Positions 19,523-20,385 of a DNA stretch of 64,000 nt are shown piece by piece. Below the pieces are notes generated by a model that was not told the DNA's origin, ran no database searches, and saw only the letters and a program-made list of their open reading frames with translations. Within the stretch, counting starts at the first letter, position 1; each line of letters begins with the position of its first letter. This DNA comes from Ochrobactrum sp. BTU1. GTDB lineage: Bacteria > Pseudomonadota > Alphaproteobacteria > Rhizobiales > Rhizobiaceae. The position numbers and the translations under genes were made by a program. The stretch spans positions 744,001-808,000 of the forward strand of contig CP076354.1 of assembly GCA_018798825.1 (NCBI GenBank), written 5' to 3'.

Positions 19523-19578
19523 GAGCGCATCACGAAAAGTGTGAAACAGTTTTCAGATGAAGATGCGCGTTAAAGCTC
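19523..19578. repeat. Intergenic palindromic repeat copy
   Basis: GCGCATC (19525-19531) and GATGCGC (19562-19568) bound a unit containing ACGAAAAGTGTGAAACAGTTTTC, similar to the units at 18966-19066 and 36062-36108. It lies between the orphan atpB stop and the sugE riboswitch. Confidence 0.5.
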
Positions 19579-20327
19579 TAGTGAGAAGGATGCAGGGCGT
19601 CGTTTAGATACATGCAGCTTAGCATGGTGAAAACATATGCCTGAATGATAGCCATAAGCAATTCGAGTGCGGTAAGTGCGACAGTCATGGCAAGTGGTAG
19701 AACTGCCGACAACAAGCCCATCGTGCCCAAACTGCCCAAGCCCACGACAAAGCCCGCAAAGACTTTAAGCGTGATGTGCCCCGCCAGCATGACGGCAAAC
19801 AAGCGCACCGAATGGCTGATTGGCCGTGAAATATAGGACATCACCTCGATAGGTACGATAATCGGCGCGAGTATCATGGGGACACCTGCCGGCATAAACA
19901 GCTTGAAGAATTTAAAGCCGTGGCGGACCAGCCCATAAATAGTCACGGTGAGAAATACCAGCATCGCCAGCGCGAATGTCACAATGATGTGGCTTGTAAC
20001 CGTAAAGGCATACGGAAACATCCCAATGAGATTTGCAACGAGGATGAACATGAAAAGCGAGAAAACCAGCGGGAAGAACTTCATCCCGTGTTCGCCTGCA
20101 TTCTCGCGAATCGTTTTGGAAACAAACTCGTAGAGCATTTCGACTGACGACTGCCAGCGGCCAGGCACAACCCGATTCCGGCGTGAGGCTAAAAACAGAA
20201 AGCCAGCAGCAACTGTTACAGTCAGCAGCATGTAAAGCGCAGAATTTGTGAAGACAATCTGTTGGCCACCAAGTGTACCAAGCTCGACGATAGGTCGAAT
20301 CGCAAATTGCTCAATAGGTCCAGCCAC
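19578..20327 (-). CDS. atpB: Stand-alone paralogue of ATP synthase F0 subunit a
   Basis: A 249-residue full-length subunit a, the proton-channel stator of F-type ATP synthase. It starts with GTG at 20327, preceded by AGAGGGG. Helices include FSLFMFILVANLIGMFPY and the channel helix ISRPISHSVRLFAVMLAGH with the essential arginine R175 (E. coli R210); Q229 matches E. coli Q252, and the H184/E222 pair is typical of many bacteria. Beside the arginine, H172 and V179 stand where E. coli has leucine 207 and asparagine 214. No other ATP synthase gene is nearby, so this is not the main F0 operon. The leader is a guanidine-II riboswitch. Function is unknown; see findings. Confidence 0.92.
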   Translation of the reverse strand: MAGPIEQFAIRPIVELGTLGGQQIVFTNSALYMLLTVTVAAGFLFLASRRNRVVPGRWQSSVEMLYEFVSKTIRENAGEHGMKFFPLVFSLFMFILVANLIGMFPYAFTVTSHIIVTFALAMLVFLTVTIYGLVRHGFKFFKLFMPAGVPMILAPIIVPIEVMSYISRPISHSVRLFAVMLAGHITLKVFAGFVVGLGSLGTMGLLSAVLPLAMTVALTALELLMAIIQAYVFTMLSCMYLNDALHPSH

Positions 20328-20333
20328 GGAACA

Positions 20334-20385
20334 CCCCTCTTATGGGGCCGTCCCCTATGCGAACACAGACGCGGGTCGTCCCGCG
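20334..20385 (-). promoter_or_regulatory. Guanidine-II (mini-ykkC) riboswitch upstream of the orphan atpB
   Basis: On the minus strand: P1 CGCGGG-ACGA-CCCGCG (20385 to 20370), a twelve-base linker, P2 GGGG-ACGG-CCCC with two outer pairs across a bulged A (20358 to 20342), then the ribosome site AGAGGGG (20340 to 20334) and GTG at 20327. The CCCC arm of P2 can alternatively pair with the GGGG of the ribosome site across a six-base loop, giving a clear off-state. P1 and P2 loops are identical to those of the sugE riboswitch. Confidence 0.9.

Follow-up and report, generated by a model that had tools for sequence, protein, structure and literature searches.

The window analysed here, a stretch of 64,000 nucleotides from the genome of Ochrobactrum sp. 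BTU1 (contig CP076354.1, positions 744,001 to 808,000), carries on its minus strand an orphan gene for subunit a of the F1Fo ATP synthase, which we refer to as atpB2, behind a guanidine-II (mini-ykkC) riboswitch. The window was scanned whole with the Rfam model RF01068 (Guanidine-II; gathering score 32 bits), and two matches exceed the gathering score. The order of elements on the minus strand is guanidine-II aptamer 1 (20344-20387, 33.1 bits), atpB2 (19578-20327), guanidine-II aptamer 2 (19464-19506, 38.7 bits) and the gene gdx/sugE (19128-19445). Guanidine-II RNAs are defined by two hairpins with ACGR tetraloops (PMC5486947), and each match contains two such hairpins, with the loops ACGA in P1 and ACGG in P2 of aptamer 1 and ACGA and ACGG again in aptamer 2. 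Aptamer 1 ends 16 bases 5' of the GTG start codon of atpB2. The initial annotation of this DNA, made from the letters of the sequence, had described a complete mini-ykkC motif with these loops, followed directly by a full-length subunit a gene with a GTG start. Both descriptions are borne out, the first by the covariance search and the second by protein profiles: the product of 249 amino acids matches PF00119 over positions 2-217 of 217 (228 bits) and NCBIfam NF004482 with 370 bits (cut-off 225). Solved subunit a chains also match AtpB2 (best E 4.2e-54), while an AlphaFold2 model of the protein was poor (mean pLDDT 58) and was not used for a fold search.

The second guanidine-II match, the stronger of the two, and the exporter gene adjacent to it went unmentioned in the initial annotation. 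The gene sitting behind this match encodes a small multidrug resistance protein of 105 amino acids of the guanidinium-exporter (SugE) type (PF00893, 94.8 bits), which passes the SugE equivalog model NF008512 (131 bits, cut-off 126). Because an exporter gene with its own riboswitch adjoins atpB2, the locus looks like part of a guanidine-detoxification unit.

The 5.88-Mb source genome holds two PF00119 genes, atpB2 and one that is followed by atpE and b-type genes, and AtpB2 is 61% identical to the subunit a encoded by this canonical copy. Among the open reading frames surrounding atpB2 in the window, none was seen that encodes a further ATP synthase subunit, in line with the remark of the initial annotation that no atpE, atpF or atpI is nearby. 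Since the canonical atpB and atpE are located elsewhere in the genome, we rejected the possibility, raised at the outset, that atpB2 is the genome's only atpB; in all 45 genomes searched, two atpB matches were found, one canonical and one orphan. A single match to PF00137 (subunit c) was found in the source genome, in the canonical operon, and AtpB2, if it works in an F1Fo enzyme, must therefore use that c-ring. The source genome has two guanidine-II matches (among 150 of 353 first-look candidates scored), both at the atpB2-gdx locus. Residues 2-249 of AtpB2 are identical to those of a copy in a Brucella pseudogrignonensis record.

We scanned species genomes with the orphan protein and obtained 126 relatives, of which 80 loci (69-100% identical) were analysed. 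Nearly all of these belong to Hyphomicrobiales, with hosts in Brucella/Ochrobactrum, Falsochrobactrum, Pseudochrobactrum, Ensifer, Rhizobium, Shinella, Agrobacterium, Aminobacter, Mesorhizobium, Phyllobacterium, Bosea, Afipia, Kaistia and other genera; the outlying titles are one bin named as Reyranella and one record named as Bacillus subtilis. The latter (SK6B4, L066) has a Pseudochrobactrum-like locus, and its title is probably wrong. A gene 72% identical to atpB2, annotated simply as subunit A, is also present on a Phyllobacterium plasmid. A separate search for homologous proteins, in which 120 of 8000 scored candidates were listed, is no census.

A guanidine-II element lies at most 300 nt upstream of the orphan atpB in 76 of the 80 loci, so that the pairing of riboswitch and orphan gene, whose recurrence had been suggested for survey, is indeed shared by other genomes. 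Seventy of these were found by a scan for two ACGR hairpins, which had no shuffle control of its own (26 near the start codon and 44 farther away, the window forming a further row), and six were added by the covariance model (L088, L092 and L104, and by match coordinates L096, L101 and L105). With the covariance model alone, guanidine-II precedes the atpB2 match on the same strand in 40 of 45 orphan-bearing genomes, at distances of 21-271 nt counted from a match that begins at about residue 4. The genomes missed by the model are G055, G058, G059, G063 and G076, the last of which (L102) has a degenerate form detected by the simple scan only. Under stricter filters, 49 genomes have 0-5 guanidine-II matches each, with at least one in 47. 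A chance match was rejected as an explanation of the switch, since it precedes atpB2 in 40 of 45 genomes despite just 0-5 matches per genome. In 30 of the 80 loci, the gdx gene lies downstream, no more than about 1.1 kb from the atpB2 start; it was not found in the flank searched in the other 50, which argues that the orphan is not merely a passenger of a gdx operon.

The orphan loci fall into two layouts. In class A, to which the window belongs, the distance from the end of P2 to the start codon is 15-22 nt (16 in the window). The initial annotation had pointed to an alternative CCCC/GGGG pairing that would mask the ribosome site of atpB2. This pairing is present, and folding extends it to a hairpin of 10 bp, which also engages the 5' strand of P2 and hides the ribosome site; the alternative hairpin as a whole (20328-20354, minus strand) takes both P2 strands, pairs the ribosome site GAGGGG (about 20334-20339) and excludes P2. 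The whole leader folds with a z score of -3.26 (1 of 200 dinucleotide shuffles as good) and the segment 20325-20356 alone with -2.52. The fold without P2 reaches -32.4 kcal/mol versus -27.4 kcal/mol for the best fold in which P2 was forced, where P1 is lost; both values are for the free RNA, with ligand and loop kissing left out. In folds of the P2 3' arm plus linker, at least half of the G-rich ribosome site is paired in each of the 26 class A leaders tested, and its partner is the P2 arm in 19. For the window, 28 of 200 mononucleotide shuffles of the P2 3' arm and linker alone were as good. Leaders with a P2 of the form CCGGG-ACGR-CCCGG (L051, L055, L082 and L106) have GGGCCGG in the linker, and those with GGGG-ACGR-CCCC have GGGG or GGG there (both by eye, unscored). 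The linker sequence thus varies with the type of P2, suggesting that the rival pairing tracks P2; counted only as contiguous pairs with the P2 arm, this pairing shows a weak excess over shuffled linkers (3.70 vs 2.68). The gdx leader folds differently, with P2 retained and the P1-P2 linker pairing with the ribosome site AAGGAG (z = -4.38). In class B (44 loci), the switch ends 95-229 nt upstream of atpB2 and is followed in most cases by a short hairpin. Some class B loci have a short reading frame that reaches or enters the atpB2 start; in L049, L052, L053, L057 and L067, such a frame runs from about 120 to 3 nt before atpB2 and ends at its start, which may mean translational coupling.

We aligned the orphans with E. 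coli subunit a and with canonical subunits, 59 in a first set and later 29 more from other families of the order (the resulting 88 include some near-identical or repeated genomes), and one further orphan, L197, brought the orphans to 81. The essential arginine of E. coli, Arg210 (Arg175 in AtpB2, codon 19803-19805), is kept in 80/80 orphans and 89/89 others, and so are the half-channel residues His184 and Glu222 (the 219/245 pair) and Gln229 (Gln252), in 80/80 orphans and 59/59 canonical copies. Five positions are fixed differently in the orphans and the 59 canonical subunits (in 95% of orphans and 90% of canonical copies): an N-terminal Asp is replaced by Gly, Leu207 by His, Asn214 by Val, Val248 by Met and Leu251 by Ile. 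At position 214 (Val179 in AtpB2, codon 19791-19793), Val is found in 81/81 orphans and in 0/88 canonical copies, which have Asn (83) or Ser (5); the five Ser copies (L119-L123) all come from Pseudochrobactrum-like genomes, four of them titled as such. Asn214 is thus usual in canonical subunits but does not define them. Position 207 (His172, codon 19812-19814) is His in 80/80 orphans, and in canonical copies it is Leu in 84/88 and His in 4/88. We rejected His207 as a special change, since these four Hyphomicrobiales canonical subunits and the solved Paracoccus chain 5dn6_X carry it too, and Val214 alone serves as the hallmark of the orphans. A strict search for the Val214 pattern, with no mismatch allowed, recovered 1 of 190 genomes of the class, the source genome itself, and one for the His207-Val214 pattern 5 of 397 in the order; both counts are lower bounds. 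Asn214 is described as a residue of the proton input half-channel, and the E. coli substitution N214L as shifting both channel pKa values while proton-driven steps persist (PMC9447477); S206, N214 and I249 are reported among the residues near the c-ring and most accessible to Ag+ (PMC6377231). The clade-wide change from Asn214 to Val at the proton half-channel points to a reason for a second copy.

The 81 orphans form one clade (SH-like support 0.90), next to two Afipia and one further canonical subunit (0.999). A single clade next to Afipia-type canonical subunits suggests that atpB2 looks like an old duplicate that spread. The orphans are under purifying selection: the median dN/dS of atpB2 in Brucella/Falsochrobactrum is 0.079 (11 of 55 pairs with unsaturated dS), comparable data for gdx in the same group giving 0.064 over 33 pairs, and the value for atpB2 over all species is 0.18 (1792 pairs, with dS near saturation). 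Of the 35 genomes examined in the genus, 15 carry the orphan at full length, 4 have a broken or partial copy and 16 lack it. The partial copies of G002 and G009 lie in genomes that are 85% and 69% complete and in which the canonical genes are fragmented too, so that these two may be sequencing errors. Scars of atpB2 loss are found in G013, G020 and G029, which hold gdx and both switches about 157 nt apart, with traces of the atpB2 start in two; such scar loci (L162, L163 and L164) keep both guanidine-II copies at this spacing together with gdx. The gene is therefore dispensable, yet it is selectively kept elsewhere.

Based on these findings, we propose that guanidine induces AtpB2 as a substitute stator subunit of Fo that is less affected by guanidinium, while the ion itself is removed by Gdx, a proposal to which we give about an even chance of being correct. 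It builds on computed features of the locus and its relatives, namely the riboswitch matches, the masking pairing, the conserved link between switch and gene, the existence of two atpB paralogues, the clade-wide Val214 and the purifying selection. Control of atpB2 by guanidine-II is well supported, and the central idea of the initial annotation, that this switch controls a second Fo subunit a which would have to replace the normal one, gains support from the covariance match, the additional canonical atpB, the recurrence and the masking fold. Guanidine as the ligand and the ON direction are carried over from what is described for the riboswitch class (PMC12186494, PMC5486947). In the absence of guanidine, the leader hairpin of atpB2 would consume P2 and hide the ribosome site, so that little AtpB2 would be made; guanidinium bound to both ACGR loops would hold P1 and P2 in a kissing form, freeing the ribosome site for translation of AtpB2, and the second copy of the switch would act likewise on the Gdx exporter. 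AtpB2 would then take the place of AtpB beside the cell's single c-ring. Incorporation into Fo, as expected of the family, is likely. AtpB2 keeps Arg210 and those residues of the half-channels on which proton transfer depends. From Val214 only, we infer that AtpB2 may tolerate guanidinium: Val214 would remove a polar side chain by the site of the arginine and the c-subunit carboxylate, a place in which free guanidinium, which mimics the side chain of Arg, might settle. We hypothesize that guanidinium impairs Fo in this way and that Val214 relieves the impairment, so that the motor could continue while Gdx exports guanidinium against protons.

Similar exchanges may extend to a further complex. 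An orphan PhaF gene (PF04066) lies near atpB2 in 5 of 14 genomes searched (L075, L076, L086, L097 and L110), among them the PhaF/MrpF genes at L075:1763-2056, L097:1779-2063 and L110:1868-2155, all on the minus strand, and genomes with an orphan PhaF have two further F genes elsewhere. In the four loci checked, guanidine-II precedes the orphan PhaF, by the covariance model in L075, L076 and L097 and as the motif in L110. All five orphan PhaF proteins have Pro where the 20 other aligned F subunits have Glu or Asp, and this loss of an acidic residue parallels Val214. On this ground, we tentatively raise the possibility, which we place clearly below an even chance, that bacteria respond to guanidine by replacing individual membrane subunits of ion-translocating complexes under riboswitch control: AtpB2 in the ATP synthase and, in some Rhizobium and Agrobacterium relatives, the orphan PhaF in the Pha/Mrp antiporter. 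In each case, the ion path would have lost a polar or acidic residue and would no longer be blocked by free guanidinium; the base for the PhaF parallel is thin, being five related genomes. A ChaA-like Na/Ca exchanger gene (PF01699) with a guanidine-II motif or match upstream lies on the plus strand at L075:2346-3521, L049:2598-3752 and L110:2360-3535. It sits just upstream of the atpB2 switch, between PhaF and atpB2 in L075 and L110, and in L049 no PhaF was seen. An open reading frame in L097 looks similar to the ChaA-like gene. In L110, a short frame for 76 amino acids with one likely membrane stretch (3608-3838, plus strand) is flanked by two guanidine-II copies and overlaps the second with its end; it has no Pfam or NCBIfam match.

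Several observations weigh against the proposal that AtpB2 is a guanidine-induced, guanidinium-tolerant replacement. Direct masking as drawn cannot work in class B because of the distance of 95-229 nt, and within class A the ribosome site pairs inside the linker and not with P2 in 7 of 26 leaders; just 12 of the 26 class A hairpins beat 95% of shuffles, and that of the window is not among them. No switch was found beside the orphan in the flank searched at four of the 80 loci (L066, L070, L071 and L078). One of 29 aligned sequences, the metagenomic homologue P0117, has Leu in place of the essential Arg175. We found nothing showing that guanidinium itself inhibits bacterial Fo, and the nearest work concerns biguanides: at millimolar concentrations, these are reported to inhibit ATP hydrolysis by mitochondrial ATP synthase, with the effect partly retained on isolated F1 and its site not placed in Fo, and metformin and buformin to give no block of ATP synthesis (PMC4148174). 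The orphan is, moreover, absent or broken in 20 of the 35 genomes of the genus, which makes the gene dispensable. These 20 genomes, three of which keep gdx and both switches, would also fit an old atpB duplicate that rides in a gdx operon with no role related to guanidine. We consider such a passenger very improbable, since a switch of its own precedes the orphan in 76 of 80 loci, across both layouts and also where gdx was not found, and since it is under purifying selection with a fixed clade signature.

Other functions for AtpB2 can be envisaged. It may retune bioenergetics rather than evade an inhibitor: Gdx is described as importing two protons per guanidinium (PMC12186494), so that export would lower the proton motive force, and AtpB2 could alter the pKa or coupling of the proton channel, with Val214 shifting its working range and guanidinium not binding to Fo at all. 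The pKa shifts of aN214L in E. coli (PMC9447477) and the cation/proton antiporter genes, ChaA-like and PhaF-like, behind the same type of switch in some relatives are consistent with this explanation. However, it sits poorly with the 50 loci in which no gdx was found beside the orphan, and it leaves unexplained why a residue near Arg210 is fixed as Val and does not drift among non-polar residues; we regard it as rather unlikely. A change from a polar channel residue to Val could instead lower conductance, and AtpB2 would then serve as a protective brake, giving an Fo that runs slowly or is shut and so prevents proton leak or ATP hydrolysis under guanidine. Such a brake would not need Arg210, which is invariant in the 80 orphans together with the 219/245 pair and Gln252 under purifying selection, and E. 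coli aN214L still makes proton-driven steps (PMC9447477); this explanation appears improbable. That AtpB2 acts apart from F1Fo, for example in a guanidinium transport path with Gdx, might be suggested by its orphan position and by its frequent adjacency to gdx (30/80). We find this hardly credible, as Arg210 and its partners, residues meaningful only against a c-ring, are invariant, gdx is missing from the flank searched at most loci, and the one atpE match of the source genome lies in the canonical operon.

Two further features flank or face the locus on the plus strand of the window. Divergent from atpB2, positions 20527-21510 encode a metallo-beta-lactamase fold protein with a twin-arginine signal, which is nearest to AidB lactonases yet scores far below the cut-off (130 vs 360 bits). 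Opposite the atpB2-gdx spacer, positions 19496-19592 give a weak, partial match to the model of the Brucella small RNA CI408 (32.5 vs a gathering score of 398 bits).

Guanidine riboswitches are described as widespread, yet the physiological meaning of guanidine as elusive (PMC12186494). That a spare Fo subunit is conserved behind a riboswitch and carries a fixed change close to the essential arginine points to the ATP synthase as a guanidine target. To our knowledge, the cellular damage target of guanidine is not settled. If guanidine does drive the exchange of single subunits as raised above, Fo would be a main target of guanidine toxicity, and this ATP synthase would be, as far as we know, the first in which a metabolite-sensing RNA remodels the stator when required. 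It would also be a rare case of a central energy-converting machine that is changed one subunit at a time according to need. The altered second copy, its switch and the neighbouring exporter gene suggest that these soil bacteria may swap in a guanidine-tolerant subunit a when poisoned, and AtpB2 offers a natural position-214 variant for the study of proton entry in Fo. We found no paper in the open-licence PMC literature that links a guanidine riboswitch to ATP synthase, atpB2 or antiporters, although a mention in the gene tables of the 2017 guanidine-II validation paper is still possible; by term counts, 'ATP synthase' is absent from the main texts of PMC12186494, PMC7736828 and PMC7266159. 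Riboswitch and subunit are each of a known kind, and none of the papers found describes a regulon of guanidine riboswitches with an altered Fo stator gene in it.

The atpB2 leader shares with known guanidine-II RNAs the two ACGR stem-loops, the position just 5' of the ribosome site and a possible hairpin overlapping P2 and the ribosome site. Whereas the elements described elsewhere precede exporter, carboxylase or other guanidine genes, this one precedes an ATP synthase subunit gene. The protein resembles canonical AtpB of Hyphomicrobiales in its full length, its family profile, and its Arg210 and half-channel residues, and is nearest to the Afipia-type subunits in the tree; unlike canonical AtpB, it is encoded by an orphan, riboswitch-led gene and has Val214 in every copy seen. 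As in known riboswitch-led SugE/Gdx units, a gdx gene with its own guanidine-II adjoins atpB2 in the window and in many relatives, but here the unit is extended by an Fo subunit, which in 50 of the 80 loci stands where no gdx was found. Spare targets that are insensitive to a drug, among them second genes for isoleucyl-tRNA synthetase or dihydropteroate synthase, likewise place a second, altered copy beside the normal one, which in the case of atpB2 would be the presumed target. Unlike those, AtpB2 is presumably induced through a riboswitch by the stress compound, its insensitivity is inferred only, and it would be exchanged as one subunit of a large complex.
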